Shown here one piece after another: positions 22,440 through 45,232 of a DNA stretch of 64,000 nucleotides. A program made the translations under genes and the position numbers. The notes under the pieces were generated by a model that was not told the origin of the DNA, made no database searches, and worked only from the letters and a program-made list of their open reading frames with translations. This DNA comes from Salipiger mucosus DSM 16094 (GTDB taxonomy: Bacteria; Pseudomonadota; Alphaproteobacteria; Rhodobacterales; Rhodobacteraceae), in NCBI RefSeq assembly GCF_000442255.1, contig NZ_KE557274.1, positions 128,467 to 192,466 on the forward strand. Reading direction: 5' to 3'. Within the stretch, counting starts at the first letter, position 1, and each line of letters opens with the position of its first letter.

Positions 22440-22610
22440 GGGAACCCCCTGAATTTCCTCAGAAGGTGTCCGCGGGCATGCAAGACGCATGTCTGATGGA
22501 TTGGAAGACAGAAAGGCGTCCTAAGAATCAGGATCCTGTCACGGAACAATTTTCCCCAAACCCAATGCCCGGGATACACCGGGGCCCAGCATCGGGCCCC
22601 GGAAAAGAGA

Positions 22611-23708
22611 TCACATGGCCGGCGCGGCTGCCGCATCCGCCTCGCGCTTGAACTTCAGCGTCCCCAGCCGGCAGGCTTCGTCGTCGACGTCCGTCCTGGG
22701 CCCCTTGAAGACCGGCTGGTAAAGCGATCCGCCCTCGTAGGCGTAGAGGTACTCGACCTCGATCAGCTGACCGGCCTCCGGGAACTGCTCCACGCCCTGC
22801 GGAATGGTCACGTTGCCGACCTCGATCCAGTCGTCACCATCCAGCATCTCGAGGCGCACGGAGGACTTCTCGCCGTTGCGCGCCTTCACCCGGGCCGTAC
22901 AGCTCTCGATGTACTTCATCTTGAAAGCCACAGGCTGCCGGCCCTCCGCGTAGACGCTGTCTGCAGGGCGCAGGACGTAGCCCTCGGCACCCGCGTCCCG
23001 CATCCTGGGTTCCCGATCCCGGAAGAACTCGGCGGCCGGAACGGGAACATCGAATTTCACAGCCGTCAGGCCGAGTTGCTGCGCGGTGCTCTGCAGACCC
23101 GCAAGAACGTTGGACCGCACCCTGAAAGTCGAGACCCCTTTCTCCACCTGGGGATGCTCGACGACGTCGAAGACGACCAGGTGATCGCCCATGTCTTCGG
23201 CGTCGAGGACGAAGCCCTCCGGAAGATCCAGGAACAGGGCCTGCACGTCGTCCATCACGGGTTGACGAACACCGACCTCGAGGCCGTTGCGGTTCGCAAA
23301 GTGGATTCCGTCGGGACCGGCAATTACGCCGCGGCGTTCGCCATCGTGTTTCTGCTGCGCCAGCCACTCTCCGTCCAGACCGGAGGCTTCTTCGTGGGAG
23401 ATCGCCGTCAGCAGCATGGGCCGGAACGCCGTCTTGCGGCCGGCATTCTCACCGCCGGCAAATGCGGCTCCCGTCACGTCTTCGGTGTATCCCTTCCGGG
23501 TCTTGGAGGCCACGGTCTTGTCGTAGAGCTTGACGGCAGAATCGTAGCTGATCGCCTCCTTGGTCTTTTCGGCATTCTTCAGCGCCTTGCCGCGGCGCCC
23601 GTTTTGCGCGAAGACGCGCCACCCGTCACCGTCCTGAACGAGCTGGACCCGGTACTCCTTGTCCGAACTGCCTTCGGTGAGGAACAACGCGATGGATTTC
23701 TCTTCCAT
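22611..23708 (-). CDS. WGR domain / ATP-dependent DNA ligase fusion
   Basis: 365 residues. Residues about 1-75 are a WGR-like domain (SDKEYRVQLVQDGDGWRVF; NGRRGKAL; KTRKGY), with N-G-R instead of W-G-R. Residues 100-350 are a minimal nucleotidyltransferase/OB ligase: motif I QQKHDGERR with adenylated lysine K120, NRNG (140-142), motif III LVVFDVV (177-183), motif IV EGYVLR (242-247), motif V AFKMKY (261-266), then an OB-like tail. WGR domains bind nicked or broken ends in PARP-type proteins. AGGGAG precedes the ATG. Located between AbiEi and AbiEii genes. Confidence 0.85.
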   Translation of the reverse strand: MEEKSIALFLTEGSSDKEYRVQLVQDGDGWRVFAQNGRRGKALKNAEKTKEAISYDSAVKLYDKTVASKTRKGYTEDVTGAAFAGGENAGRKTAFRPMLLTAISHEEASGLDGEWLAQQKHDGERRGVIAGPDGIHFANRNGLEVGVRQPVMDDVQALFLDLPEGFVLDAEDMGDHLVVFDVVEHPQVEKGVSTFRVRSNVLAGLQSTAQQLGLTAVKFDVPVPAAEFFRDREPRMRDAGAEGYVLRPADSVYAEGRQPVAFKMKYIESCTARVKARNGEKSSVRLEMLDGDDWIEVGNVTIPQGVEQFPEAGQLIEVEYLYAYEGGSLYQPVFKGPRTDVDDEACRLGTLKFKREADAAAAPAM

Positions 23709-23756
23709 GAAACACTCCCTGTTGCCCCTACAGAATAGATTGGGGGCGCGCCCGCT

Positions 23757-24479
23757 TCAAGGACAAAACGCCGCCGGTTGCTCCTGATCGGTGAACCCAA
23801 AGTTTTTCTGGCGGCTCTTGATGATCAGATCGAATTGCTCGGCCTGCCCGAACTTCGCTGCCATGGAAATCAGCTTCGCAGGGCTGCTGCCTTCCTGCCC
23901 AAAATACATGGATACGGCTTCCGTCACGGATTCCTCATCAATCATCAGGGTTTGATCGTTTCCGCCATTCAAGGGGCTGTACCGCAGGAGATCCACGAGT
24001 GTTCGCTCCCTGTTCGTCATCCGAACGTCGACGCCCTTGAAGCTCGCCACCGTTTCTACGCCGATTTCCAGGGATTCCTCCTGGCGCCACCGGATAAACT
24101 GGACGGGTTCGTTCTCAAACCTGCTTGCGCCGCGGGCGTGAGGAACCCCCACCTGGACCTCGGGAACACCGATGTCGATGCTCATGTCATGCCACTGGGC
24201 CGCCGAATAGAGGCAGATCGCGGCTTCCGGTCCGCCCAGGACGCAAGCTTTCGCAAGCTCTTCCAGAATGTATTCACGCTCCTCGATCTCCGCAGGCACA
24301 GAGCTCTTTGCATGGATTTCGTCAACGAAGTAGTGACCCCGAACCATGGAGTGGATATGTCCGCCCTCTCGAAGACGCCGCATGACCCTGCGGCTGATCC
24401 CCATGTCTTCAAGTTCCCGAGCGCTGTATACTTGTCCATCGCTCATGAGTTCGATACCCCGGCGCATCTGAGGGCCCAT
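23757..24479 (-). CDS. AbiEi-like antitoxin (winged helix)
   Basis: 240 residues; AAGGAG precedes this ATG at 9 nt. The N terminus has an AbiEi-type winged helix (VYSARELEDMGISRRVMRRL; RGHYFVDE), followed by the AbiEi C-terminal domain (AICLYSAAQWHDMSI..GVPEVQVGVP...FKGVDVRMTNRERTLVDLL). It should bind its own promoter and neutralise the AbiEii nucleotidyltransferase at 21489-22439. The ligase gene starts 48 bp downstream, so a three-gene operon is likely. Confidence 0.82.
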   Translation of the reverse strand: MGPQMRRGIELMSDGQVYSARELEDMGISRRVMRRLREGGHIHSMVRGHYFVDEIHAKSSVPAEIEEREYILEELAKACVLGGPEAAICLYSAAQWHDMSIDIGVPEVQVGVPHARGASRFENEPVQFIRWRQEESLEIGVETVASFKGVDVRMTNRERTLVDLLRYSPLNGGNDQTLMIDEESVTEAVSMYFGQEGSSPAKLISMAAKFGQAEQFDLIIKSRQKNFGFTDQEQPAAFCP

Positions 24480-26301: not shown

Positions 26302-27486
26302 CTACGTCTTCACGGTGATCTCCCGCGACCGCTTGGCCAACGGCTCTGCAGCCCCCTCGTCGTTGATCAGGATGGTCTCGGTGATCTCCATCCCCCAATC
26401 ATCCATCCAGAGACCTGGCATGAAGTGGAAGGTCATTCCGGGCTCGAGAACGGTGGTGTCCTCGGGCCTCAGGCTGATCGTATGCTCCCCCCAGTCCGGC
26501 GGGTAGCTGAGGCCGACCGAGTAGCCACAGCGTGCCCCGCGTTCGATGCCAGCGCGCTCCAGGGGAACAGCCAGCGCGTTTGCGATGTCGCAGGCCCGGT
26601 TGCCGGGGCGGGCCCAGTCGATGCCGCTCTCCAGCCCCTCCAGAAGTGCTGCCTCTGCGCGCTTCATCTCGTCAGGGGGCGTCCCCAGGAACACTGTCCG
26701 GCAGAAGGGCACGTGGTAACGGCGGTAGCAGCCCGCCGTTTCAAGGAAGGTCGCCTCCCCGCTCTGGAAGGAACGACCGTCCCAGGTCAGATGCGGCGCG
26801 CTGGCGTCCGATCCTGAAGGCAGCATGGGCACGATGGCGGGATAGTCGCCCCAGTTCCCGTCCGCGCCGGCGATGGCATCCCGATAGATCTCCGAAACCA
26901 GGTCATTCTTGGCCATGCCGGGCTCGATGCGCTCGATGAACCCGTCGACGATCTTCTCGGAGATGCGCGCGGCCCGCCGCATGAAGTCGATCTCGACGCC
27001 TGATTTCACGCGACGCTGCCAGTTCACGATGTTGGTCGCGTCCTTGATCTCGGCATCCGGCAGCATTTTCAGGAGTTCTTCGTGCGCCTTGGCGGAGTAG
27101 TAGAAGTTCTCCTTCTCGACACCGACGACGCCGCCATCGAGGCCCAGCGCCCGGATGTGCTGGGCGAGGTCCTGCATCGGGTGGATCTGGGAACTCTGGA
27201 TGAAACGGTCCGGGTAGCCGACCACGTGATCGTCGGACATCCACACGGTCAGCAAAGCGCCGTTGGCGTCCATCTTGCGACCCCACCAGATTGGCTCCTC
27301 GTCGAAAGTGATCAGGACCCCCTGGTGAACGTAGAACGACCAGCCATCGTAGCCGGTCAGCCAATTCATGTTCGACGGGTTCGTGACGTACAGAAGATCG
27401 ATGCCAGCCTCGTGCATCGCGTACCGGACCAGTTCGAGCCGCCTGCGATACTCCGCTTCCGGGAACGCGGTGAGTTTGGTGCGCAT
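26302..27486 (-). CDS. doeA: M24-family peptidase, ectoine hydrolase (DoeA/EutD-like)
   Basis: 394 residues from ATG 27486 with AGGAGA upstream. Creatinase/prolidase N domain followed by an M24 pita-bread domain. The segments NWLTGYDGWSFYVHQGVL, GYPDRFIQSSQIHPMQDLA and SVGLSYPPDWGEHTISL are those I associate with DoeA, which opens the ectoine ring to N-acetyl-diaminobutyrate. Usual partners doeB, doeC, doeD and the uehABC importer are absent here, so it is an orphan copy or the others are elsewhere. The alternative is another M24 Xaa-Pro-type hydrolase. Confidence 0.75.
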   Translation of the reverse strand: MRTKLTAFPEAEYRRRLELVRYAMHEAGIDLLYVTNPSNMNWLTGYDGWSFYVHQGVLITFDEEPIWWGRKMDANGALLTVWMSDDHVVGYPDRFIQSSQIHPMQDLAQHIRALGLDGGVVGVEKENFYYSAKAHEELLKMLPDAEIKDATNIVNWQRRVKSGVEIDFMRRAARISEKIVDGFIERIEPGMAKNDLVSEIYRDAIAGADGNWGDYPAIVPMLPSGSDASAPHLTWDGRSFQSGEATFLETAGCYRRYHVPFCRTVFLGTPPDEMKRAEAALLEGLESGIDWARPGNRACDIANALAVPLERAGIERGARCGYSVGLSYPPDWGEHTISLRPEDTTVLEPGMTFHFMPGLWMDDWGMEITETILINDEGAAEPLAKRSREITVKT

Positions 27487-27564: not shown

Positions 27565-28242
27565 TCAGAAGCGCGGACCGGGCGTCCCAAGGGTCTCGAG
27601 GGCCCCGAACAGGTCGGCGTCAATCTCCGCCGCGGGGAAGTTCCGAGCGACACTGTTCACGACATCCTCGATTTCGTCGAGGCCCACGTCCCTTTCTTCG
27701 TACCCGGTTACCAGGACATCATCCTCGTCGGTGGTTGGGAAGCGAAGCAAAATACCAACGGAAAAGGTGGCGGCCTCTTCGATGCAGTCGGCCGGTTCGA
27801 AATTGTCCTCCTCGCCAGGAACTGCCGCATAGAGCGGCGCCACCGCTTCAAGCTTGGAGTACGTGCAGACCGTGAGCCCTTCGAGATCGTCACCCAGTTT
27901 CGCCTTCAGGTCATCGACTTCCCAGCCGAAGAGAATGCACTCGTTGGCGATTTCTTTCGGCGTCCATCCAGTGGATGGATCATAGACCCCGCCGGTCTCG
28001 GTTTTCAGGATGTACGTCGGCCCGTTCAGGAGCCGGTTGTCGTACATTGGCGACCATGTCACCTCCGGATCGCGTCCTTGCATCTGCATAATCATCCTGA
28101 AAAGGAACTGCTCGCGCTGGCTCCAGACATCCGGGCGATCCGTGGTCTCCACCGTGAATGAGTGGTCCAGATGTGCCTTGATCGAAGCGAATTCGCCGTC
28201 CTGCGTGCGCGGCGCGAACCCTGATATCGTCAGATCAGCCAT
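27565..28242 (-). CDS. Unrecognised paralogue family, member A
   Basis: 225 residues; AGGAGAG upstream of ATG. N-terminal PRTQDGEFASIK, core NRLLNGPTYILKTETGGVYD followed by a conserved Cys in ANECILFGW, C-terminal region ending FPAAEID... and the tail GTPGPRF. These elements align with five neighbours (28267, 29038, 29751, 35044, 35748). No signal peptide, no transmembrane helix, strongly acidic. Last gene of a four-gene run. Function unknown. Confidence 0.75.
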   Translation of the reverse strand: MADLTISGFAPRTQDGEFASIKAHLDHSFTVETTDRPDVWSQREQFLFRMIMQMQGRDPEVTWSPMYDNRLLNGPTYILKTETGGVYDPSTGWTPKEIANECILFGWEVDDLKAKLGDDLEGLTVCTYSKLEAVAPLYAAVPGEEDNFEPADCIEEAATFSVGILLRFPTTDEDDVLVTGYEERDVGLDEIEDVVNSVARNFPAAEIDADLFGALETLGTPGPRF

Positions 28243-28266
28243 GAAAGAGCTCTCTCCTGAATTGTC

Positions 28267-29016
28267 TCATGGCCCCGGAGCGCCCGGAGCATCGTCCGGG
28301 TCCAATGACATGATATCCACCTGAGGTTCCGCGCCGGGGTAGCGGGAGTCGAACCGAAACAGCACGTTGGCGAGATCGGCCGGATTCCGGTCCTCGATCT
28401 CCTCGATAATCGTGTGGTTTTCCAGCGTGTACGGATAGGTGATCTTCACCGTCGCATGGAAGACGGTGTCGGGCCCAATCTCGTCGGCCGGCTCGGCTTC
28501 GTCGGGGCCGTCGGGTGTCGGGTCCATGTGGATCACGTCGATCTCCAGGGCCGAGTACTGGGTCGGCATGCAGTCCCCGGAGCGGAGGCACTCTACCGCA
28601 ACGTTCCGCACGTCCTCATCGGTGATCGCACGGTCCTTTTTCTTCTGGAGCGCACTCCGCATCTTTTGCCAGCCGGGGCCGTCCGGGTCTTCGAGATCCC
28701 ATGCGTTCAGAAGGCAGCCCGGGGTGATCTCTTTCACCGGCGCGAGCAACGAGATATCGAAGTACCCCCCTCCGTCCGCGTGCAACACATAGGTATCTCC
28801 ATTCAGCGTCGGGTCCGCGTGATGGGTCGTCCAGAGGACATCGTCCAGTTCGGCGAACTTGCCCAGCTTGTCCAGGAGGCGATACTCGCGATCCGACCAG
28901 AGGTCCGGGCTCTTCGACTGTTCGACCCTGAGTTGGCCCTGACCGTCGATGTCGATTTTCAGGAAGTTCCACTCGCTATCCCTGGGAACGCGGTGTTCTG
29001 TTTTCGATGAGCTCAT
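28267..29016 (-). CDS. Unrecognised paralogue family, member B
   Basis: 249 residues. PRDSEWNFLKID at the N terminus; core DPTLNGDTYVLHADGGGYFD and TPGCLLNAWDLED; C-terminal ALEIDVIHMD, FHATVKITYPY, FRFDSRYPGAE and the acidic tail ending GAPGP. Closest in the core to member C (LNGDT, N-x-WDLE). Very acidic cytosolic protein. GAGG lies close to the ATG. Function unknown. Confidence 0.75.
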   Translation of the reverse strand: MSSSKTEHRVPRDSEWNFLKIDIDGQGQLRVEQSKSPDLWSDREYRLLDKLGKFAELDDVLWTTHHADPTLNGDTYVLHADGGGYFDISLLAPVKEITPGCLLNAWDLEDPDGPGWQKMRSALQKKKDRAITDEDVRNVAVECLRSGDCMPTQYSALEIDVIHMDPTPDGPDEAEPADEIGPDTVFHATVKITYPYTLENHTIIEEIEDRNPADLANVLFRFDSRYPGAEPQVDIMSLDPDDAPGAPGP

Positions 29017-29037
29017 TTCCTCAACCTCTCGTCTCTC

Positions 29038-29751
29038 TTATTTTGGTGCCGGCAGGCCGGGATCCGTCGAGACCTCGTCCTGGAGCAGCGCGCCCGGGTA
29101 GTCGCGCTCGATGAACTCACGGACATGTTCGAAGTCGAGCAACTCGACGCCCCTGTAGCTTTCGACCTTCCACACAGAAGCACCCCGGCCCTGAAAGCCC
29201 ATCTCTTCGACGCTGACGACAGCATCGAAATGGCTTCCGCCTTCGCGGAGCGCGAACTCGGCCGTCAGCCGGGTGTGAAGAACTTCGTGGCAGCCCTGGA
29301 TCGCTTCCGCAGCCATCTGGACAATTTCAGGACCCGAGACCTCTTCTCGCGTTCGACGCATGAGCTCGGGCCTCATGCGCGCGAGCCCGGGCAGCATACC
29401 GCCACGGCCTTCCATGCTTAGCGCCTCGAGATCCCATTTGTTGAACAAGCATCCGGCGTTGAGCTCGTCGGTGAAGGCGACCCGGTTCGCATCAAAGAAC
29501 CGATCACCATTTTTCAGAATGAAGGTGTCTCCGTTGAGGCGCGGGTCATGCCTGTATCGTCCCCAATGCACATCCAGGTCGGCATGAAAGATCCGGGCCA
29601 ACCTCTGAACGGCGTGCTTTTCCCTAGTGGAATGGATATCCGGGAAATTCGACACGGGAAAATCGAGAGCATCTTCCACAGCTTTCAGGCTGATTTCCAC
29701 AAACTCACCGTCCTCGTTGCGAGGAACGTAGCACAGGGATTTGAGGTGCAT
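29038..29751 (-). CDS. Unrecognised paralogue family, member C
   Basis: 237 residues from ATG 29751, which overlaps the stop of member D (TGATG), so the two are translationally coupled; the longer frame to 29919 runs back through member D and is discounted. N-terminal PRNEDGEFVEIS; core DPRLNGDTFILKNGDRFFD and NAGCLFNKWDLEAL; C-terminal FIERDYPGALLQ and tail DPGLPAPK. Shares NF/PD-x-x-S-x-RE with members A and B (PDxWSxRE). Function unknown. Confidence 0.77.
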   Translation of the reverse strand: MHLKSLCYVPRNEDGEFVEISLKAVEDALDFPVSNFPDIHSTREKHAVQRLARIFHADLDVHWGRYRHDPRLNGDTFILKNGDRFFDANRVAFTDELNAGCLFNKWDLEALSMEGRGGMLPGLARMRPELMRRTREEVSGPEIVQMAAEAIQGCHEVLHTRLTAEFALREGGSHFDAVVSVEEMGFQGRGASVWKVESYRGVELLDFEHVREFIERDYPGALLQDEVSTDPGLPAPK

Positions 29752-30437
29752 CACGGACGGACCTCCGGCGCTTCTTCGGGCTCCAATTCCGGTGTCACCA
29801 GCGCCAGAACACTGCCAGGGTAAGACTGTTTGACCGAGGTCGCGTACATGCTGAAGTAGTCGGCATCGAGGCCTTCGTGTGCTTCGATGACATCGGACGC
29901 CCCGACCTGCTCGGGACATCCCGACATGTAGTCCACGCGGACGATGATGTTGAATTTGCTGACCTCTTCCTCGGAAGCGGCCGGAACCAGTTCTCCTTCG
30001 ACATCGGGGTCATCGGTCATCTGAAAGACCTCGATCCTGATATTCGAGAACGGCGTCACTTCCACATCCAGATCGCTGAACCGATCACCGAAAACAGCCT
30101 CGGCCTCGAGCCGGGTCATGACGCAGGTCTCGTCGACCGTCGGCACGAAGCAATCGGAAGCCGGATCGTAAAAGCGGCCTTCCTGGTCTTCCAGGACGAA
30201 GGTCTCTCCGTTGAGCCGCTTGTCCTTGTAATGCCGCCCGAACGTCAGGTCCTCGGACCCGATCAGTTTCTGAACGTCGGAGAAGTCGTGCAGAACCGGC
30301 TCGCGGGGTCCGACCTTCGTCGTCAGGATCGTGTTCTCGTCCTTGCCCGTCTTCACCCGGTAGTACATGCCCTCTCCGTCAAACACGACGTAGCTCAGGT
30401 CACGAGACCCGGTGGGCCGTTTGGCGGGATTCAGCAT
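29751..30437 (-). CDS. Unrecognised paralogue family, member D
   Basis: 228 residues from ATG 30437; GGAGGG with 7-nt spacing selects this start over TTG 30452. Core DKRLNGETFVLEDQEGRFYD and DETCVMTRLEAE; C-terminal SNIRIEVFQMT, FNIIVRVDYM and SVKQSYPGSVLAL; tail PELEPEEAPEVRP. First gene of the inner run; its upstream region ends at the trxB remnant, so its original promoter may have been displaced. Function unknown. Confidence 0.75.
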   Translation of the reverse strand: MLNPAKRPTGSRDLSYVVFDGEGMYYRVKTGKDENTILTTKVGPREPVLHDFSDVQKLIGSEDLTFGRHYKDKRLNGETFVLEDQEGRFYDPASDCFVPTVDETCVMTRLEAEAVFGDRFSDLDVEVTPFSNIRIEVFQMTDDPDVEGELVPAASEEEVSKFNIIVRVDYMSGCPEQVGASDVIEAHEGLDADYFSMYATSVKQSYPGSVLALVTPELEPEEAPEVRP

Positions 30438-30488
30438 GTTGTTGCCCTCCAAGATTGTCTGAATGAGATCTGGTTCCAGCGACGCATG

Positions 30489-30650
<162 letters not shown>

Positions 30651-30724
30651 TTACCGAGACTGAAATCCATCCGTGCACAAGGTACTCTTGCAGGCATGAG
30701 CACCTTTCTCGCCGAAACGTCATT

Positions 30725-30759
30725 CTTGGTCCGGTCCCTTTACGCAGGACCGGACCAAG
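30725..30759 (-). terminator. Hairpin after response regulator gene
   Basis: CTTGGTCCGGTCC-N9-GGACCGGACCAAG, perfect 13-bp stem directly after the response-regulator stop (30761). No clear U-run, so intrinsic termination strength is uncertain; it may stabilise the 3' end. Confidence 0.6.
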
Positions 30760-30760
30760 G

Positions 30761-31489
30761 TCATGGACCGTTCCGAGCCCCCCGGGACGGGGGCGTGGAT
30801 GCAGAACCTGTCCGCGCGGGAGCACTGAATGTGTAACCGACCCCATAGACCGACTTGAATGGCGCCTCCAAGTGGGCCTGCTCGAGAATTTTTCGTCGCA
30901 ACCGGCTGACCACCGCGTCGAGGTGTCGGTTATCGAAGTGGGTCTGCCGGTTTGATACCAACCGCGCCAGGTCTTCTCGCGCCAGTGCCTGGCCCGCGCT
31001 TTCGACCAGGGCGCTAACAAAGGCATTTTCGGTGCCCGTCAGGCTGACCTGCAAACCTTCGGGCGAAGTCAAAACCCAGCCAACGGGATCGTGCAGCCAG
31101 GCGTCCGGGCCGGGAGCGTCTTCGCGGTGCATCCGGCGCAGGAGGCTCTGAACGGCCGCCGCGATCTCGCGCAGGCTGCTGTGCTTGACCAGGTAGATGT
31201 CAGCCCCGCTCTCGAACCCGCGGACACGGCTTTCGGTATCGCCATGCGCTGTTAGCATGATGATACCCGAGTTAATTGTTTCGCGCGCGGCGAGAGCGAT
31301 GTCGAACCCGTCCCCATCGGGAAGGGAGATGTCGAGGATCAGTACCTGAGGTGGCGGCTCGTGTTTCAGGAGTGCCTCGAGGTCCGCGCGCGAACCAACG
31401 CCAAGCGCCTCGAAGCCCTGCATCGAGAGGTAATCCACGAGGTCACCGCGCAGAACCTCTTCGTCCTCGACAACTACGATACGGTTCAT
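30761..31489 (-). CDS. OmpR/PhoB-type response regulator
   Basis: 242 residues. Receiver with acidic pocket VVEDEE, phospho-acceptor Asp in VLILDISLPDGDG, Thr in MLTAHG and Lys in YLVKHSS. The C-terminal winged helix (about 135-225) ends SVYGVGYTFSAP. Its start overlaps the stop of the histidine kinase gene (ATGA), so the two form a complete two-component pair. It lies in the block that separates the two paralogue runs. Confidence 0.9.
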   Translation of the reverse strand: MNRIVVVEDEEVLRGDLVDYLSMQGFEALGVGSRADLEALLKHEPPPQVLILDISLPDGDGFDIALAARETINSGIIMLTAHGDTESRVRGFESGADIYLVKHSSLREIAAAVQSLLRRMHREDAPGPDAWLHDPVGWVLTSPEGLQVSLTGTENAFVSALVESAGQALAREDLARLVSNRQTHFDNRHLDAVVSRLRRKILEQAHLEAPFKSVYGVGYTFSAPARTGSASTPPSRGARNGP

Positions 31490-33021
31490 GTGCCTGCCTT
31501 CTGAATTTGCGGCGTTCGGGCTACCGACTGGGTCTCCCTATCAGCGACTGGCAGGCGAACGCTGGCAATCGTTCCGCCGCCCGGACGCGATGCTATGGTC
31601 AATGTTCCGCAGTGATACTCGACGAGCTGAAAACAGGTATGAAGGCCGAGTCCGTTGCCCCGCGTCCCGCGGACGTTCGAAGCTCGGAAAAAGCGCCGGC
31701 CAATGTTGTCGAGCTCACGCGGCGGGATCCCGACCCCCCGGTCAGAGACTCGGATATTGAGCAAGTTGGACCGCGTAAAGACCGCGATCTCGACCTGCGT
31801 CTCGCCGGACGAGTATTTCAAAGCATTGTCGACGAGGTTGACCAGGACGGTGCTCAACATCTCAGCATCGGCGCGATAGTCAGGAACATCCTCGACCATG
31901 GTGAAGTGCAGCCGGTGACCTTTGCCAACTCGGTCGAAATGTTTCTGCACCTCGGTCGACATTGCCGGCATGTCGAGGTCCTCGAGCTCCACGAGCCCCT
32001 CGGTCAGGCGCTCTGTCGCCAGGAAGCGGTCAATCAAAAGGGTCATCCGGCTAACCGAGTCTCCGATGCTGTCCAGTCGCCGACTGACGGCCTCGGGCGG
32101 ATCGGTCAGCACCTCTCCCAAGATCTCGCTGGCGTAGCGGATCGCGGCCAGCGGCGTGCGAAATTCGTGGCTGACCATGCGGGTCAGCTGGCGCTGGTCC
32201 TCGCGCGCTACCTTCTCGGCCTCCAACGATGTCGACAGCTCGCGTTCCAGCCGGCGCCGCTCAGAGATCTCCTCGGCAAGGGCGGTATTTCGGCTGCGCA
32301 AGTCCATGAAAAGCCGCATGCAGACCATGATGAGCAGGCATATGAAGAAGCCATTCATGAAAAACAGCCCCATCAGGAAATACCAGCCATTGACGTCGGA
32401 GAGGATCGGCCCGTTCGAAACGGTGGCCGGCCTGATGTAGACGACGGCACTCTGCACGACGCTCGTCGTGATGTAGAACCCTAGCATCCCGATGGTCATC
32501 CAGCGAACGAAGCGGGGCTGGTTCCGTTCGCCCAGTAGGGTGCGGATCATCATGCCCATGACGACCGTGGTGAAGAGGGTCGAGAGGTGGATGCGCAGGC
32601 CCAGGTCTGCAGGAGCCCAAGTCAGCGCGGCGCTGAATGCCAGCCCGAAGACCGCTAGGCAGGCCAACCCAAAGCGCACGCAACCGGGCCTGCCCAGAAA
32701 GCGCGCCATGCCTTCGGCCAGAAGGACGAGGCCAAACTTCACCGTCATGTTGTCGAAGACAATGTGGAAGGGCATCGGTGTAGTTCCGCGTTCGAGAAGC
32801 AACAGCACGCCTAGCGCGATGGCCGTGAACCCAGCCGCGATCACCTTCAACTCGTAAAGCTGGCGCCACGACAGCCAGATCAGCAGCCATGCGATGGCCT
32901 GCAGCGTGGTCGTGCTGAATTGCACGAGAAGAAGTGTCTCGAGATCGAGCATGGCTTCTGATGACGCAAGGGCATGCATGGGCGCAAGTGTCTTGGGGCT
33001 TCGTGGTGTGGTTTTTGCCAA
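31486..33021 (-). CDS. Membrane sensor histidine kinase
   Basis: Up to 511 residues; the start is uncertain (TTG 33021, ATG 32979 or ATG 32952, the last just before the first helix). About seven hydrophobic segments in residues 25-245 form a membrane sensor. HisKA with H-box MVSHEFRTPLAAI, then HATPase_c with N-box LVNLVDNALKYS, G1 VSDRGVGIP and G2 GNGLGLH. Overlaps the response regulator by 4 bp. Signal unknown. Divergent from the patatin gene across 221 bp. Confidence 0.9.
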   Translation of the reverse strand: MAKTTPRSPKTLAPMHALASSEAMLDLETLLLVQFSTTTLQAIAWLLIWLSWRQLYELKVIAAGFTAIALGVLLLLERGTTPMPFHIVFDNMTVKFGLVLLAEGMARFLGRPGCVRFGLACLAVFGLAFSAALTWAPADLGLRIHLSTLFTTVVMGMMIRTLLGERNQPRFVRWMTIGMLGFYITTSVVQSAVVYIRPATVSNGPILSDVNGWYFLMGLFFMNGFFICLLIMVCMRLFMDLRSRNTALAEEISERRRLERELSTSLEAEKVAREDQRQLTRMVSHEFRTPLAAIRYASEILGEVLTDPPEAVSRRLDSIGDSVSRMTLLIDRFLATERLTEGLVELEDLDMPAMSTEVQKHFDRVGKGHRLHFTMVEDVPDYRADAEMLSTVLVNLVDNALKYSSGETQVEIAVFTRSNLLNIRVSDRGVGIPPRELDNIGRRFFRASNVRGTRGNGLGLHTCFQLVEYHCGTLTIASRPGGGTIASVRLPVADRETQSVARTPQIQKAGT

Positions 33022-33242
33022 GGACCTGAGATGGAGAGAAGATTTGGTCAGAATTGATCAGAATTGGTGGGTGGAGCGGTGCCTGACCCGGCGTGTACCC
33101 AAGGCGTGTGACGCGCGGATACGCCCCAGTGTCAGCCGGCTGGACAGGCCGGTCCGGGCCCGTGTTCCACAAGCGCTTTGCTCCGCGTCTGGGATCGCGG
33201 CATGGCGCGTAGTCAGGGATAACCCGAACGGGGAGAACAGGC

Positions 33243-35000
33243 ATGGACGCACAGGACGCTATGACGCGCGAGGCCGCCGTGCCGGCCTTGCTGGAGCAGC
33301 TCGCGGCCGAGGACCGGTCGCGTGTTGCGGCCCGGCTGCGGATCAGGGACCTTGCCCGCGGCGAGGTGCTGACCGAGGCGGGCACACCGGCCCAGTCGCT
33401 CTTTTTCACGCGTCACGGGCAATTCCGGGCGGGTGAGACTTTCTACGGACCAGGCCGAATGATCGACGCCGAGGCCTTCTTCTCGCGCGGCATTCATCCG
33501 GATACAGTGATCGCCACGCGTACCGCACAGGTGTTCGAGCTTGACCGACCGAGCCACGACGCGCTCCTGGCGGAGGTGCCGGGCCTCGCGCCGGCATTGT
33601 TGGAAGGATTTGCAGGTCAGGTCCGCACGGCCGGGGCGCCGCAGGCGCGCAGACCCTCTGTCCTGGTCGTGCCGCTTTGCGCCTTGGGCCAGCGGGTGGC
33701 ATTCCTGTCGGCGTTGCGCAATCGCATGGCCTCGACGGAAACGCGGCTCTTAGAGGTTCCGCAGGACGACGCTACCGACATTCCGTCCTTCCTCGGTGCG
33801 CGCGCGGCGGAGGGCAGACAGGTTGCCTTCCTAGCCGACGATCCCGGCTACCGCCGGCTGCAGTCGTGGATGGATCATGCCGACGAGGTGATCATCGTGA
33901 CCGAGGGGCGGGCAGCTGAGCTGCGCGATGAAGCGGTCCTGCGCCAGCTGCTCGCGGCCTTCCCGTCTGAGCAGCGCCGTCTCGTGCGGCTTCATCCGGA
34001 ACGACAGGGCGTCGTGAGCGGCACCGCCGAATGGCTGGCAAAGATCCCCGCCGCGATGCATCACCATGTCTGCCTGAAGGACAACGACGACGTCGACGCG
34101 CTGCTGCGCTTCATCACCGGCCGCGCCGTGGGCCTCGTCGGCGGTGGCGGTGGCGGACTGGGCGCGGCCTACAGCGGGATTTGCCGCGCGCTTGGCGAAG
34201 AGGGGATCAGTTTCGACTACTTGCTGGGAACGAGCGTGGGCTCGTCGATGCTGGCCGGACTGGCCTACCTCGGAGACCACAGAACGCTCAGCGAGGGTAC
34301 AGAGTATATTTTCGTGCGCCAGAGAAGCTTCAAGAAATTCACCCTGCCGCGCCATTCCCTTCTCGACCACAAGACGTTCGACCGGGCCATGCAAGACACC
34401 TACGGCGCCGCCACGCGGATCGAGGATTGCTGGAAGCCCTACGCGGCCATCGCGACCAACGTTTCTGCCCGCCGGACCGAAGTCATCCGGACGGGGCCGC
34501 TGTGGCAGGCGGTGCGAGCCTCGACGGCCGTTCCATGTGTCCTTCCGCCCTTCGTTACCGACGACGGCATGATGCTGATCGACGGCAGCATCATGAACGA
34601 CGCGCCGGTCGACGTGATGCGACAGATCAAGGCGGGGCCCAACGTGGTGGTTCATTTCGGACGACCGGGCGTGCGACGCATGAAAATCGACTACGACGAA
34701 CTACCTGGGCGTGCTGGCGTGCTCCGGTCTTTCCTCCCCGTGCGACGGCGGCGTCGCTCGGCGCCCGGTATCCTCAGCATGCTCTACCGCACCATGATGG
34801 TGCACCAGACCTACGACATTCGACCCGAACCCGGTGACCTGGTCCTGAATCCTCCTTCTTTCCCGGGCGCCTCCATGGTCAACTTCGACAATCACAAAAA
34901 GGTCACCGCCGAAGCCTACGACTGGACGTTGAAGGAACTGGCGACCAGACACGCCACGGGGCAAGACAGCGCCCTCCTGCGGGCGGGCAGGGCGGCCTGA
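33243..35000 (+). CDS. Patatin-like phospholipase with N-terminal cNMP-binding-like domain
   Basis: 585 residues. Residues about 10-125 resemble a cyclic-nucleotide-binding fold (LARGEVLTEAGTPAQSLFF, GQFRAGETFYGPGRMID). A middle alpha/beta region (139-290) precedes the patatin domain: glycine-rich oxyanion loop GGGGGGLGAAYSG, nucleophile GTSVGSS and the dyad aspartate in LIDGSIMND. This is the NTE/RssA-type arrangement: a cytosolic or membrane-facing lipid hydrolase possibly gated by a nucleotide. A class III cyclase and an HD phosphodiesterase exist on the same replicon. Divergent from the histidine kinase. Confidence 0.87.
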   Translation: MDAQDAMTREAAVPALLEQLAAEDRSRVAARLRIRDLARGEVLTEAGTPAQSLFFTRHGQFRAGETFYGPGRMIDAEAFFSRGIHPDTVIATRTAQVFELDRPSHDALLAEVPGLAPALLEGFAGQVRTAGAPQARRPSVLVVPLCALGQRVAFLSALRNRMASTETRLLEVPQDDATDIPSFLGARAAEGRQVAFLADDPGYRRLQSWMDHADEVIIVTEGRAAELRDEAVLRQLLAAFPSEQRRLVRLHPERQGVVSGTAEWLAKIPAAMHHHVCLKDNDDVDALLRFITGRAVGLVGGGGGGLGAAYSGICRALGEEGISFDYLLGTSVGSSMLAGLAYLGDHRTLSEGTEYIFVRQRSFKKFTLPRHSLLDHKTFDRAMQDTYGAATRIEDCWKPYAAIATNVSARRTEVIRTGPLWQAVRASTAVPCVLPPFVTDDGMMLIDGSIMNDAPVDVMRQIKAGPNVVVHFGRPGVRRMKIDYDELPGRAGVLRSFLPVRRRRRSAPGILSMLYRTMMVHQTYDIRPEPGDLVLNPPSFPGASMVNFDNHKKVTAEAYDWTLKELATRHATGQDSALLRAGRAA

Positions 35001-35043
35001 TCTATTTCGTCACGGCACGCGAGGCTCACCTTACTCCGGCACT

Positions 35044-35718
35044 TCAAGGACCGGGTACCGGGCTTGGTTCGGGCTCGACTTTCTCCATCCCAGGATAGAT
35101 CTCCGCGATCTGCCCGATGTAGTCGGGGTACTTTGCGACCGGGCAGTTGCCGCGCTCCGTAAGGACCTGGGTTTCGATGTCAAAATCAGGATATTCGACG
35201 AATACGGCCGCACCGAAGACCGTAGCCTGGTGGCGCTCACAGAGGTGGCCCAGGTCGTTTTCGTCGACCCAGAAGAAGCTTTTCTCGAACCGCAGGCTGG
35301 AAAAGTGGCTCACATCGACCTCGTCCGGGCTTCCTTCGGCGGCCTCATCCACGAGATGAAGGCCCTTCGATTGCCGCACCGCCTCCTCGGCAGCTTCCCG
35401 GCTCTCGAACAGACAGTCAGTGTCCAGGTCGAGCTGAACGTCGTCCGTCCTCGGGTTGTAGACATGCCCATCACCGCACATCGCGATGAAAGTCGGCCCG
35501 TTCTCGCGTGGGTCGCCATGGTAGTCTCCGAAGAAGAAACCGCCAGGACTGGGAACGTACTTCCTTGCCTGGTCCCGGGTCAGAACCTGCGGGGTGTCCG
35601 GGCTAGGCTCCGCGGCTTTCTCCTCCCCGGGTAGGCCGATCTGAACGTATTCGCCGTGCCGGTTTCTTGGAGCGAGCAGCTCGCTTTTCTTGGCCGTGTC
35701 GACGGGTGCAATATCCAT
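35044..35718 (-). CDS. Unrecognised paralogue family, member E
   Basis: 224 residues; TTTCAGGAAGAGG upstream. N-terminal PRNRHGEYVQIG; core DPRENGPTFIAMCGDGHVYN and DTDCLFESREAAE; C-terminal AAVFVEYPDFD, IAEIYPGMEKV and tail EPEPSPVPGP. Has L-to-E in the LNG motif (ENG) but otherwise follows the family. Second gene of the outer run, 30 bp after member F. Function unknown. Confidence 0.72.
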   Translation of the reverse strand: MDIAPVDTAKKSELLAPRNRHGEYVQIGLPGEEKAAEPSPDTPQVLTRDQARKYVPSPGGFFFGDYHGDPRENGPTFIAMCGDGHVYNPRTDDVQLDLDTDCLFESREAAEEAVRQSKGLHLVDEAAEGSPDEVDVSHFSSLRFEKSFFWVDENDLGHLCERHQATVFGAAVFVEYPDFDIETQVLTERGNCPVAKYPDYIGQIAEIYPGMEKVEPEPSPVPGP

Positions 35719-35747
35719 TGTGGAAACCTCTTCCTGAAATTTTCTGG

Positions 35748-36434
35748 TCAGCCAAATCCTGGCACAATCGCGCGTTCCGGTTCCGGCTCACGGAAGGCCG
35801 GCTCCATTCCGGGAAAGTACTCGGCGGTCTCGCGCAGGACCATGGTGACATGGTCGACCTCGAATTCTTCGTTGACCTCGACCTCGTCGTACTCGTTGTC
35901 AGTTTCGTGGTAGCGCACCTGCACCCTCAGATCGGCAGTCACGGCCTCGGAAATGAGCGTGGTCACATAGGCGTCCCCGTTCTCGTCCCGCGCCTGCAGC
36001 TCGACTTCACCGACAAGGCTGGAAAACGCATGAACAGACACGCCGCCGGTTTCCCGAAGTGATCGGAAGTCCTCGTCCTGAGCCTCCAGTTCCCTGGCTT
36101 CCTCGGCCGAAAACAGGCAGCTGACCGGCACCTCTCCATAGGTTCCGAACGCCTGCGTTGCCTTGTCATAAATCCGCCCGTGGCTGTCGCAGGCAATGTA
36201 GGTTGTCCCGTTCAGGCGCGGGTCCTCGTGGTGCACTGTCCTCCGGGTCTCCGCCTCCGGAAGAGACCCCAGGTCTTCGTCAGAAATCAGAACAGGGACG
36301 TCGGACAGGAGGCGAACCTTCTCGCCGCCTACACCAGTCCCGAAAGTGACGTATTTCCCGGTGATCCTGTCGGTGGCCAAGTAGGACAGGGTGTCTGTCT
36401 CGCGGTCGATCTCTGGAAGCGGTGCTGCCCGCAT
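35748..36434 (-). CDS. Unrecognised paralogue family, member F
   Basis: 228 residues from ATG 36434 with AGGAGA upstream. N-terminal DRITGKYVTFG; core HHEDPRLNGTTYIACDSHGR with following YD, then VSCLFSAEEARELE; C-terminal LRVQVRYHETD, TAEYFPGMEPAF and tail EPEPERAIVPGFG. Closest to member E (CLFxxxEAxE, PGME). Starts 47 bp after the ATP-grasp gene in the same direction. Function unknown. Confidence 0.73.
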   Translation of the reverse strand: MRAAPLPEIDRETDTLSYLATDRITGKYVTFGTGVGGEKVRLLSDVPVLISDEDLGSLPEAETRRTVHHEDPRLNGTTYIACDSHGRIYDKATQAFGTYGEVPVSCLFSAEEARELEAQDEDFRSLRETGGVSVHAFSSLVGEVELQARDENGDAYVTTLISEAVTADLRVQVRYHETDNEYDEVEVNEEFEVDHVTMVLRETAEYFPGMEPAFREPEPERAIVPGFG

Positions 36435-36481: not shown

Positions 36482-37324
36482 TCAAAGGGACGGGAGTCCG
36501 AACATGGTTGGCAACGCATCGAACAGTGCTGCGGCGTCCATCCCTTCGTAGAAGCCGGCTGTCGTCAGGCCGTTGAGCTCCACGAGCTTCACGCCGTCCT
36601 CGGTTTCGACCATGTCGATCACCAGGTTGTTCTCGTAATACTCTAGGTTCTGGATCACCTCTTCGACCTTCTCCGTCATGCCGGCCGGCATCCGCTGCGC
36701 GCTGGGCTCCATGTCACCCCAGCTATAGGGCGCCCAGGTTGCGATCTTTCCGGCGACCACCCAGAACCGCCACTCGATGTTGGAAATCGTCTTTTTCGGG
36801 AAGATCACCGTGATTTCCCCGGGCTCGATGCTCTCCAGCTTCTCGTAGCTGTCGATGTTGTAGTCGTAGGCCTCCCAGGTTGTCGGGAACCCGGCGAAGG
36901 GTTTCCAGGGGCTGTTCGGCCGGATGAAGACGCCGTCATCGCCATAGAAGGATTTCAGGCAGCGAACAGCGTCATCGGTCCGCAGGTGCTGCCAGGGGAA
37001 CAGGATCCCGAAGGGGTTGAGCAGGAGATCGTTCGGCAACTGGGCCGCGTAGTTGCTCCAGGAGAGCTTGAACCTCGAAGCGACCACCCCGCTCTGGATC
37101 GTCGGGATATTCAGGTTCGGCGCCTGCTGCGCCAACCGGATCGCGGTGAAGCACATGACCGGCTCGCCCGTGCCCAGCGCACTCTTGAACAGCGTCCGTT
37201 CAATGTCCCGGATCGAGTCCGAGAAATGCATGGTGTCCAGCCGGTGCGCCGTCCAGCCACGCTGCGCGCACAGATCCTCCACGGGTTGCCCGCGGACGAT
37301 CTCGTCCTGGTATACGATGTGCAT
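36482..37324 (-). CDS. ATP-grasp domain protein (DUF4343-like)
   Basis: 280 residues from ATG 37324. An N-terminal preATP-grasp-like region (1-110), then GVFIRPNSPWKPFAGFPTTW, EWRFWVVAGKIATWAPYSW and VIDMVETEDGVKLVELNGL, the nucleotide and Mg2+-binding strands (D and E/N ligands) of an ATP-grasp fold like DUF4343 proteins of phages and plasmids. ATP-grasp enzymes join a carboxylate to an amine or thiol via acyl phosphate; no substrate is known here. Cotranscribed with paralogue members F and E. A palindrome TTGGATAG-N3-CTATCCAA lies 20 nt upstream. Confidence 0.78.
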   Translation of the reverse strand: MHIVYQDEIVRGQPVEDLCAQRGWTAHRLDTMHFSDSIRDIERTLFKSALGTGEPVMCFTAIRLAQQAPNLNIPTIQSGVVASRFKLSWSNYAAQLPNDLLLNPFGILFPWQHLRTDDAVRCLKSFYGDDGVFIRPNSPWKPFAGFPTTWEAYDYNIDSYEKLESIEPGEITVIFPKKTISNIEWRFWVVAGKIATWAPYSWGDMEPSAQRMPAGMTEKVEEVIQNLEYYENNLVIDMVETEDGVKLVELNGLTTAGFYEGMDAAALFDALPTMFGLPSL

Positions 37325-37344
37325 GGTGTCTGCTTTCTTCTGTG

Positions 37345-37363
37345 TTGGATAGCATCTATCCAA
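37345..37363. promoter_or_regulatory. Perfect dyad TTGGATAG-cat-CTATCCAA
   Basis: 8-bp arms, 3-bp centre, 20 nt before the ATP-grasp start. The same GGATAG/CTATCC half-sites recur at 38421-38439 before the small acidic gene of the same unit. Candidate operator. Confidence 0.5.
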
Positions 37364-37420
37364 ATAATCCTTGAAATGGAAGGCCCTCTTGCCCGTCATT
37401 TCAAGGATTTCCGATGCCAG

Positions 37421-37996
37421 TCACGGCACCGGACGTCCCGGCCTGCAGTTGGTGAGCCACTTGTCCGACTTGCGTTCAAGGGTGTCTCGGAACCGCTCGA
37501 TAGAAAGCGACGGATCTTCCGTTTTTGCGGCCACCAGAAGATCGTGTACGCACATATCGAGGGCCGCGGCAACTTTCCCGGACTTGTCCTTCAGTCCGTC
37601 GGCCCCCAGAGTTCTGAATTCGCGGCTCAGGTCGGACACCACTTCCGCAACGCCGGCGACGCCAGCCTCGACCAGATCCCAACCCCCAGGCTGGATGGAA
37701 ACCAACTCCAGATAGGACCGGATACGGTTCTGCACACCCAGCCGAACGTCTTCGTCCGGAAAGCTCTTCCAGACGAGATCGGCCAGGCAAATCATGACGT
37801 CGGCGGCCTCCCCTACCACGCCATCCTCGTCCGGTTGCTTGGAAATGTAGCCGGAAGCGATGTTGACCTCGTCGGCCAGTTCTCCGAGTTCCGACAGCGT
37901 GGCAAGCACGACCTGTCTCTGCGTCCGGTCAGCAACGGCGCTGGAGACCGGATCGGTGATGGCAAAGAGGGTGCTCGGAGGTTGAATAAATACCAT
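37421..37996 (-). CDS. MazG-like nucleoside triphosphate pyrophosphohydrolase
   Basis: 191 residues from ATG 37996 (AAGGAC upstream). MazG metal-binding helices: ELGELADE (E36, E39, E43) and GEAADVMICLADL (E63, D66), the EX2E/EX2D pattern that binds Mg2+ to hydrolyse NTPs. A C-terminal helical extension (about 85-191) is not typical of the minimal fold. Phage and plasmid MazG proteins trim (d)NTP or ppGpp pools. Same direction as the ATP-grasp gene 97 bp downstream. Confidence 0.75.
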   Translation of the reverse strand: MVFIQPPSTLFAITDPVSSAVADRTQRQVVLATLSELGELADEVNIASGYISKQPDEDGVVGEAADVMICLADLVWKSFPDEDVRLGVQNRIRSYLELVSIQPGGWDLVEAGVAGVAEVVSDLSREFRTLGADGLKDKSGKVAAALDMCVHDLLVAAKTEDPSLSIERFRDTLERKSDKWLTNCRPGRPVP

Positions 37997-38082
37997 TCTG
38001 GGTCCTTGGCTGAATTGGAAAGAAAAAGGCGCCCAGCGCATATGCGAGGGCGCCCTCTTGAAGAGTTGTCCGGTCCGCCCGC

Positions 38083-38349
38083 TCACATGGCCATGGCCGG
38101 CGCCTGCTCCATGTCGCGAACCTGCTCTTCGACGGCCTCGATCATGGATCGCGGCGTGTCGTCGGACATCTTGAGGCCGTCATGATGTACGAGGTCGGCC
38201 ACCATCTCCACGGCCTCGTGGAACTGATCGGTCGTCTGGGTGGCCCCGTCGGACGTGACCTCGAAGGTCTCGGCATGTTGGATTTCGTCGATTGCGACCT
38301 TCTCATTGCGGAAGTTGGTGATCAGGCCGCGGGCAGAAACAGTTGTCAT
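38083..38349 (-). CDS. Small acidic protein (88 aa), unknown
   Basis: From ATG 38349; ends with the repeated-methionine tail APAMAM, which resembles the ending of the WGR-ligase (AAAPAM). Body: MTTVSARGLITNFRNEKVAIDEIQHAETFE, read in two parts of about 15 residues, then a long acidic helix. No family recognised. The dyad CTATCC-N7-GGATAG lies 72 bp upstream. Confidence 0.55.
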   Translation of the reverse strand: MTTVSARGLITNFRNEKVAIDEIQHAETFEVTSDGATQTTDQFHEAVEMVADLVHHDGLKMSDDTPRSMIEAVEEQVRDMEQAPAMAM

Positions 38350-38616: not shown

Positions 38617-40151
38617 ATATTTTGTTGAAAAACTCGCGCTTGATCGAGGGGCATCTTGCTGATTCAATTCCGCCAACGGGCGGGAGGAATGGCGATGATG
38701 GGATCCAAGCAGGAGGCGCAGCCAGCGCTGTTCTACGAGTTCTCGCTGGAAGATCACGTCCCCCGGGATCATCTGCTTCGATCCATTGATCGGTTCGTCG
38801 ATCTCAGCAGCATCCGCGCCTACCTTGCCGATTTCTACAGTCACACAGGGCGCCCCTCCGTCGATCCCGAATTGCTGATCCGCATGCTCCTGGTCGGATA
38901 CTGCTTTGGTATCCGGTCCGAGCGGCGGCTCTGCGAGGAGGTCCATCTGAACCTGGCGTATCGCTGGTTTTGCCGCTTGGACCTCAGCGATCGGGTTCCG
39001 GACCATTCCACCTTCTCGAAGAACCGCCATGGTCGTTTCCGCGAGAGCGAACTGCTCCGCCACCTGTTTGAGACGACCGTCGCGCGGTGCATCGAAGAGG
39101 GCCTGGTCAGCGGACAGCGCATGGCCATCGACGCGAGCCTGATCGAAGCCGATGCCAACAAGCAGAACTCGACTCCGAAGGAGGAGTGGGATCCGGCGCA
39201 GGTCGATCCTGCTGATGCCCCGCGGGCCGTTCGCGAGTATCTTGAGACTCTGGACGAGGCAGCGTTCGGTGCTGCCAGCGAGGTGCAGCCGAAGTTCACG
39301 TCGCATTCCGACCCGGCCAGCCAGTGGACGGCCGCACGTAAGGGTCCGGCTTTCTTCAGCTATTCTGACAACTACCTGATCGACACCGACCATGGCGTAA
39401 TCGTAGATGTCGAAGCCACCAGGTCCATTCGGCAGGCCGAGGTCGGTGCGACCAAGACCATGCTGGAGCGTGTGAAGACCAAGTTCGCCCTCCATCCCGA
39501 ACGCCTGATCGCGGACACGGCCTATGGCAGCGGGCCGATGCTGGGCTGGTTGGTCGAGCGCAAGATTGCCCCGCATATCCCCGTTTTCGACAAATCCGGA
39601 CGATCCGATGGGACTTGGACACGCGTCGACTTTGAATGGGATGCGGAGAACGACCAATACATCTGCCCCGAGGGGCATGAGCTGAAGCAGTTCCGCCGGA
39701 ACTATTCCGATCCGAACCGCGGGCCAACCGGCAAGGGCACAGCCCGCTATCGGGCGCTGAAAGAGGTCTGTCAGGCATGCCCATCAAAAGCGAAGTGCTG
39801 CCCGAATGCGGATGCCCGCAAGATCACTCGCGAAGAACATGAAGATGCCCGGGAGGTCGCTCGCGAGATCGCCAAAACCGAGCAGTATGTGATCTCGATG
39901 AAGCTGAGGAAGAAGGTCGAGATGCTCTTTGCCCACCTCAAACGGATCCTTGGCCTGAACAGGCTGCGATTACGTGGTCCACGCGGCGCAAATGACGAAT
40001 TCCTTCTTGCCGCAACCGCCCAAAACCTCCGCAAACTGGCCAAGATCCTTCCTGCACCGCAGCAACCGCGAAAAGCCTGACAGGAAAGGCGCACGCCCCG
40101 TGTTCTGCAATCGATATTCTGCGCTTGCGAACGGGTGTTTTTCCACAGAAT
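38617..40151 (+). mobile_element. IS1182-family insertion sequence
   Basis: About 1.5 kb. Ends carry an imperfect inverted repeat: left ATTTTGTTGAAAAAC (38619-38633), right, complemented, ATTCTGTGGAAAAAC (40137-40151), 13 of 15 matching. A 3-bp CGG flanks both sides (38614-38616 and 40152-40154) and could be the target duplication; this is short, so the exact ends are uncertain by a few bases. One intact transposase gene. Inserted in the 3' end of the helicase gene. Confidence 0.85.
38695..40080 (+). CDS. IS1182-family transposase
   Basis: 461 residues from ATG 38695 (GGAGG 7 nt upstream). IS1182 features: N-terminal LFYEFSLEDHVPRDHLLRSI and GRPSVDPELLIRMLLVGYCF; DDE core with D in MAIDASLIEAD, D in LIADTAYGSG, and a late E near KVEMLFAHLKRILGLNRLRL; a zinc-like cluster CQACPSKAKCCP. 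Apparently intact, so the element may still move. Confidence 0.93.
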   Translation: MMGSKQEAQPALFYEFSLEDHVPRDHLLRSIDRFVDLSSIRAYLADFYSHTGRPSVDPELLIRMLLVGYCFGIRSERRLCEEVHLNLAYRWFCRLDLSDRVPDHSTFSKNRHGRFRESELLRHLFETTVARCIEEGLVSGQRMAIDASLIEADANKQNSTPKEEWDPAQVDPADAPRAVREYLETLDEAAFGAASEVQPKFTSHSDPASQWTAARKGPAFFSYSDNYLIDTDHGVIVDVEATRSIRQAEVGATKTMLERVKTKFALHPERLIADTAYGSGPMLGWLVERKIAPHIPVFDKSGRSDGTWTRVDFEWDAENDQYICPEGHELKQFRRNYSDPNRGPTGKGTARYRALKEVCQACPSKAKCCPNADARKITREEHEDAREVAREIAKTEQYVISMKLRKKVEMLFAHLKRILGLNRLRLRGPRGANDEFLLAATAQNLRKLAKILPAPQQPRKA

Positions 40152-45101: not shown

Positions 45102-45169
45102 GTCTGAACACTTTCTATGGTGGTTCAGATACCCTACCGGGCAAAGGTGCAATCATGGTTTACGCGGCA

Positions 45170-45209
45170 CCACACCCTTGGGGAGACATCTGCCTCCCCA
45201 AGGGTGTGG
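45170..45209 (-). terminator. 16-bp perfect hairpin between the two RTX protease genes
   Basis: CCACACCCTTGGGGAG-N8-CTCCCCAAGGGTGTGG. 23 bp after the stop of the upstream protease and about 70 bp before the next start. No U-run follows, so it may be a partial terminator or an mRNA-stability element setting different levels of the two proteases. Confidence 0.6.
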
Positions 45210-45232
45210 TCACGTCAGAGCACGAAGTCGCT

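Follow-up and report, generated by a model that had tools for sequence, protein, structure and literature searches.

Six diverged tandem paralogues of an unrecognised acidic protein family beside an R2K-clade ATP-grasp gene in Salipiger mucosus: a possible polyimmunity-like array

The stretch of DNA considered here (the window) comprises 64,000 nucleotides of contig NZ_KE557274.1 of Salipiger mucosus DSM 16094, and coordinates are positions in it unless the contig is named. On its minus strand lie six genes, g1 to g6, which a preliminary description had presented as two runs encoding acidic proteins of one unrecognised family. All six frames are indeed open at the positions given there, and code for proteins of 224-249 amino acids (aa). 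The first gene upstream of them codes for an ATP-grasp protein of the R2K clade. The reading that we tentatively favour is an array of binding proteins working like a homogeneous polyimmunity locus. The genes are as follows.

36482..37399, minus strand: R2K-clade ATP-grasp protein (Pfam R2K_3, PF14243), first gene upstream of the array
35748..36434, minus strand: g6, family member, 228 aa from its ATG, 47 bp 3' of the R2K gene
35044..35718, minus strand: g5, family member, 224 aa, 29 bp 3' of g6
29751..30437, minus strand: g4, family member, 228 aa
29038..29751, minus strand: g3, family member, 237 aa from its ATG
28267..29016, minus strand: g2, family member, 249 aa, 21 bp 3' of g3
27565..28242, minus strand: g1, family member, 225 aa, 24 bp 3' of g2

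Some starts allow alternatives: g6 has a TTG at 36485 that would make it overlap the R2K gene, g3 would have 238 aa if the upstream GTG at 29754 were used, and the R2K gene may start further on, at the ATG of position 37324.

The six genes are homologous and make up a single family, far beyond what chance would produce, and here the preliminary description was borne out by two lines of evidence. Pairwise BLASTP within the six-sequence set gave E values from 4.5e-20 (g2 and g3) to 3.0e-4 (g2 and g5), at pairwise identities of about 19-30%. When a profile built from five members was run against a set of 7,962 sequences (the six together with the open frames of at least 50 aa of the 702-kb contig), the member left out was recovered each time (g1 9e-26, g2 4.1e-30, g3 1.5e-24, g4 4.2e-24, g5 3.2e-19 and g6 7.7e-19), and the top non-member across the six runs had an E value of 0.75. 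A gene caller based on codon bias picked five of the six at scores like those of other genes, g3 being displaced by an overlapping frame. In the tree, whose end branches measure 1.1-2.1 changes per column, g5 groups with g6 and g1 with g2, pairings compatible with tandem growth; none of the forks has good support and the join of g5 and g6 was flagged as a possible long-branch artefact.

Eight columns of the alignment are invariant in all six proteins: the first M, a P, an N, a G, a T, a C and two further P, one within [YF]P[GA] and the other close to the C-terminal end. The motifs proposed earlier held to different degrees. The Cys motif C-[LVI]-[FLM] is found in all six, and so is the C-terminal [YF]PG once it is read as [YF]-P-[GA]. 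The core D-[PKR]-R-x-NG-x-T-[FY]-[IV] is present as written in four members and in its shorter form, NG-x-T-[FY]-[IV], in all, while the subsequent [GR]-x-[FY]-[DN] step (G or R being allowed) is found in five; the N-terminal motif as written occurs in two members and is missing in the rest. The proteins are acidic, as claimed, with an isoelectric point (pI) of 4.09-4.45 in five of them and 5.23 in g3, and net charges from -13 (g3) to -28. Not one His, Lys, Arg, Asp or Glu is conserved throughout the six-member alignment, from which we infer that they act by binding rather than by catalysis.

Instead of two separate runs, one array split by a 4.6-kb block appears more likely. The R2K gene and the six members all lie on the same strand with gaps of 47 bp (R2K to g6), 29 (g6 to g5), -1 (g4 to g3, the stop of one and the start of the other sharing one base in TGATG), 21 (g3 to g2) and 24 (g2 to g1), and the sole large gap, of 4,606 bp, separates g5 from g4.

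30438..35043: block between g5 and g4, 4,606 bp, contents by Pfam except for the fragment
30496-30630, minus strand: trxB-like 3' fragment, in the block and adjoining g4
30761-31489, minus strand: response regulator, in the block
31486-33021, minus strand: histidine kinase, in the block
33243-35000, plus strand: patatin/cyclic nucleoside monophosphate (cNMP)-binding protein, in the block

The small gaps within the runs, together with the contents of the block and the fragment at its edge, point to insertion into a continuous array, whose original order was probably R2K ATP-grasp gene, g6, g5, g4, g3, g2, g1. The array is probably co-transcribed with the R2K gene; a scan for promoters and terminators gave no excess over shuffled sequences. 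The stretch 30496-30630, at the block's edge, appears to be a fragment displaced from elsewhere. It is 84% identical to a congener's locus and 89% to a different contig of this genome, and its peptide resembles, on reading, the end of a thioredoxin reductase (the name trxB comes from this reading). The patatin-like phospholipase of the block (33243-35000) carries an N-terminal cyclic-nucleotide-binding domain and lies on the strand opposite to the array.

None of the libraries searched recognises the family, and the earlier remark that no known family could be recognised stands. The best Pfam match of the six had an E value of 0.18, far below the cut-off, PHROG gave matches at E 0.12-0.3 only, and across Pfam, PHROG, NCBIfam, PADLOC and further sequence searches nothing was better than 0.12. 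AlphaFold models were obtained for two of the six members, g1 (mean predicted local distance difference test, pLDDT, 74.7; predicted template modelling score, pTM, 0.67) and g6 (mean pLDDT 69.9, pTM 0.62, with low confidence in the first 51 residues), both from the same six-row alignment. Compared at aligned positions rather than by superposition, the two models agree in the order of their secondary structure elements, consistent with one shared fold: a strand, the NGxT turn with a strand, a helix past the Cys, then three strands of greater length and a helix preceding [YF]P[GA]. The six would accordingly be predicted to be small, mostly acidic alpha+beta proteins with a C-terminal part made of strands and then a helix. 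Foldseek against the PDB gave best E values of 0.26 (g1 model) and 0.19 (g6 model), with none at E 0.001. The g1 model was also compared with BFVD, which returned partial matches only, to a 102-aa protein of Pseudomonas phage PMBT3 (E 0.03) and to a 95-aa phage protein (E 0.087); five short PMBT3 open reading frames (ORFs), selected for their length within the initial 50 kb of that record and not established to include the matched protein, gave no sequence support.

The top PDB match of one of the models was to exosome-core chains, which recur for both, within noise. They bring to mind the subunits of a single hetero-oligomer, diverged by subfunctionalisation in the style of ring complexes, and six long-branched copies, all open and in tandem order, would be compatible with such an origin. 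So would the example of CDC123, a eukaryotic member of the R2K clade described as an ATPase and as a chaperone that assists the assembly of a multi-subunit complex, eIF2 (PMC12860950, PMC8844851). With exosome-core matches at E 0.25 or above and TM-scores of 0.20 or below, we give this explanation little credit.

A profile search of the own genome found exactly six members at E values up to 1, at one locus. Outside it we could find no relative. Profile searches of 394 genomes of the family, 390 of the order, 385 of the class and 398 of the phylum (overlapping sets, with at most 7 candidates scored per genome) found the own genome only, and four other species of the genus were among the genomes of the order-level set without a family member. 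As a control, a five-row profile recovered g6 in its own genome at 5.5e-18, a test kinder than the large runs because all 16 candidates were scored. The tblastn searches, with g6 and g3 as queries against plasmids and g6 and g2 against phages (g1, g4 and g5 were left out), gave no relative among plasmids, none for g6 among phages and a best E value of 0.8, over 27% of the query, for g2. Relatives that differ from the six as much as these differ from one another would escape tblastn, so it is the profile searches that carry weight. Four scans of viral contigs with family patterns (28, 0, 62 and 41 pattern matches) and one with an R2K pattern (1 match) contained no relative, and neither did a first scan of genome contigs (42 matches). 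A second one gave 22 stretches, among which four Amycolatopsis proteins (E 0.016-0.021) and one of a planctomycete (E 0.08) matched the family profile. We judged these to be chance matches, biased by their selection with the motif itself, and the '(S/T)DPRxNGRTY' turn repeated in several of the 22 stretches is taken as probable convergence. Syntenic co-occurrence on other plasmids, put forward earlier as support for the family, was looked for and none was found.

The array might be a decaying relic without present function, given that it is split by the block and that no other searched genome keeps it. This appears very doubtful, with all six frames open, five of the six picked by the gene caller at ordinary scores and six internal positions invariant besides the first Met and the C-terminal Pro. 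The preliminary description had instead seen in the repeated duplication and retention a sign of selection for diversity, a claim that found no support; selection tests are not reliable at the divergence of this family. The branches of 1.1-2.1 changes per column and the absence from four congeners suggest that the family expanded in another lineage and that the array arrived ready-made.

The R2K gene matches PF14243 with an E value of 1.1e-13 (52.2 bits, cut-off 26.3), and its protein had no NCBIfam match. The passages of PMC4431377 drawn on here give ExR and ExN motifs and two lysines of the RAGNYA domain as marks of the clade; EWR and ELN, which are ExR- and ExN-like, could be read by eye in the ORF. 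Relatives of this gene occur in 33 phage records (154-735 kb among the 30 listed), one of them, AUZ95380.1, being an example named in the part of PMC7824862 consulted, and in nine plasmids of 0.29-1.32 Mb. In genomes of the taxonomic family, an R2K match (E 1e-8) was found in three of 325, the own genome included, the other two being distant.

R2K proteins are predicted peptide ligases, and the targets of the bacterial R2K.2 and R2K.3 groups 'remain elusive' in the text cited (PMC4431377). The six proteins could be such targets, that is, dedicated clients or substrates of the upstream enzyme, through amino-acid or peptide ligation or ATP-driven chaperoning. This is the main rival to the polyimmunity-like array. 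In its favour are the position of the R2K gene, 47 bp upstream on the same strand, the gap left by the elusive bacterial targets, the ExR- and ExN-like stretches and the chaperone role of CDC123. We examined 15 other R2K neighbourhoods (all nine plasmids and six of the 33 phage records, 10-15 kb on each side), and none had an array of paralogues or, with a best candidate at E 0.053 (7.8 bits), a convincing member of the six-gene family; of the ten paralogue pairs found there, the one closest to an R2K gene was about 3 kb away. The rarity of R2K in the taxonomic family and the pairing of R2K and array in one genome only also argue against dedicated clients, which we consider unlikely, if worth weighing. 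The more particular version, by analogy with CDC123 and eIF2, in which six paralogous subunits would be peptide-ligated or assembled into one hetero-oligomer as a client set, is improbable. If true, a prokaryotic R2K enzyme would here have its target set genetically linked to it, a case that we did not find described in the portions of the R2K literature cited.

Beyond the array and the R2K gene, the neighbouring genes are these.

37421..38086, minus strand: MazG-like protein (PHROG 1247, E 1.6e-15), upstream of the R2K gene
26302..27486, minus strand: M24 protein close to ectoine hydrolase DoeA, 78 bp 3' of g1

The MazG-like gene had no Pfam match at 0.01. Beyond it, a RecD2-like helicase gene has an insertion sequence (IS) copy (38618-40153) at its 3' end; the contig carries three more copies identical to this one, and two partial copies lie on other contigs. 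The MazG-like and RecD2 genes, the presence of R2K relatives in large phages and plasmids and the mostly acidic proteins could together indicate that the six serve anti-restriction or another kind of counter-defence, as DNA mimics or decoys, on a segment that came from a phage or plasmid. Set against this are g3 with its higher pI and net charge of only -13, the lack of a PADLOC match and the poor PHROG ones, the phage tblastn that gave nothing with g6 and only the partial g2 match, and a g1 model without a PDB or BFVD match at E 0.001, so that we hold such a role to be rather improbable. On the other side of the array, the M24 protein scored 554.1 bits against TIGR02993 (cut-off 613) and is 62.6% identical to a plasmid gene with other neighbours; contig C1 has a further stretch that resembles a copy of its gene (73% in DNA). 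It was set aside as a partner peptidase, being DoeA-like and having unrelated neighbours elsewhere, and is probably a bystander.

AbiEii and AbiEi genes are found in 21489-24479 with a WGR-domain ligase gene (22611-23708) between them, whose relatives appear on 18 plasmid records. A search for repABC gave no RP-C match, and only one control genome matched, below the cut-off. At 42423-47887 there are two adjoining subtilases with RTX repeats as well as a P domain. Four tandem paralogues outside the window, at 517371-520844 of the contig (C2), would on reading be type IV pilin-type proteins.

The short Pro/Gly tails of the six proteins, counted among the family features earlier, are real and are rejected as a family signature, as unrelated neighbouring genes carry them too. 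If a C terminus counts as Pro-rich when at least two of its final eight residues are Pro, nine of 20 called genes at 19.5-38.4 kb of the window have such tails, against 56/559 outside the two stretches described here (p 1e-4), and without the six the figure is 5/14 (p 0.011). The second stretch, at 13.6-33.4 kb of the same contig (C2, outside the window), has ten in 26 (p 2e-4). The counts leave out the genes of the 30.5-35.0 kb block and include the plus-strand ORF 29125-29421 instead of g3 among the 20, and the p values are optimistic because the stretches were chosen after looking. Both stretches are rich in unknown genes with Pro-rich, often acidic tails, and both may belong to a single acquired element. 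Genes within or close to the second one (C2 7804-8769 and 25297-31544) match SMODS nucleotidyltransferase, DUF5131, HD + AAA_33, Fic and RES.

We return to the polyimmunity-like array, which we regard as possible. Six anciently diverged tandem paralogues would have been acquired as one unit, later split by the inserted block, and would now be transcribed with the R2K gene; each non-enzymatic member may bind a different target protein, so that, by analogy, the array would be a reserve of antidote-like proteins with which to meet incoming toxins or effectors. Conflict-type neighbours (AbiEi, AbiEii and the WGR-domain ligase matching PADLOC candidate models) support it. Several observations weigh on the other side. 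The six had no Pfam, NCBIfam or PADLOC family match and no toxin partner was identified for the array, nor was a type VI secretion system (T6SS) Hcp found in the genome, while the E. coli control matched. A search for TPS says nothing either way, as none of its controls matched. This reading leaves the R2K gene at the array's head without an explanation, and the block with the patatin-like gene interrupts the array. Besides, the G+C content at third codon positions (GC3) of the six (0.69-0.79, 13th-64th percentile; contig mean 0.772 over 419 genes) is ordinary and so gives no compositional sign of import. The layout agrees with most of the published description of such loci, yet no member matches a known immunity family and no toxin partner was identified; the array may therefore work like a polyimmunity locus, and we do not say that it is one. 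Should it be an antidote store, a family absent from the searched libraries would be added to the immunity repertoire, and under either this reading or that of R2K clients the locus is a compact test set of one predicted fold in six diverged copies.

Among known systems, the R2K neighbourhoods of large phages and plasmids share with this locus the R2K gene; unlike it, the 15 examined had neither an array nor a convincing family member. Type VII systems have tandem immunity genes of the esaG type, which are also described as strings of non-identical antidote genes (PMC9484751), a likeness by description to which no Pfam or NCBIfam match of the six points. Homogeneous polyimmunity loci are tandem distant paralogues of one type, in the same orientation and with short gaps, usually one per organism and varying between strains (PMC3482391). 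The present array departs from those made of tandem SUKH, Imm11 or similar genes in having six members without a known immunity family and an R2K gene at its head, and in the patatin/cNMP-binding gene and two-component pair that separate g5 from g4, with nothing that shows a toxin role for them. Along the lines of such loci, the genes are in tandem, on the same strand and with small gaps (29, -1, 21 and 24 bp) barring the 4606-bp block, their products are distantly related (about 19-30% identity), and there is one locus in the genome, absent from four congeners.

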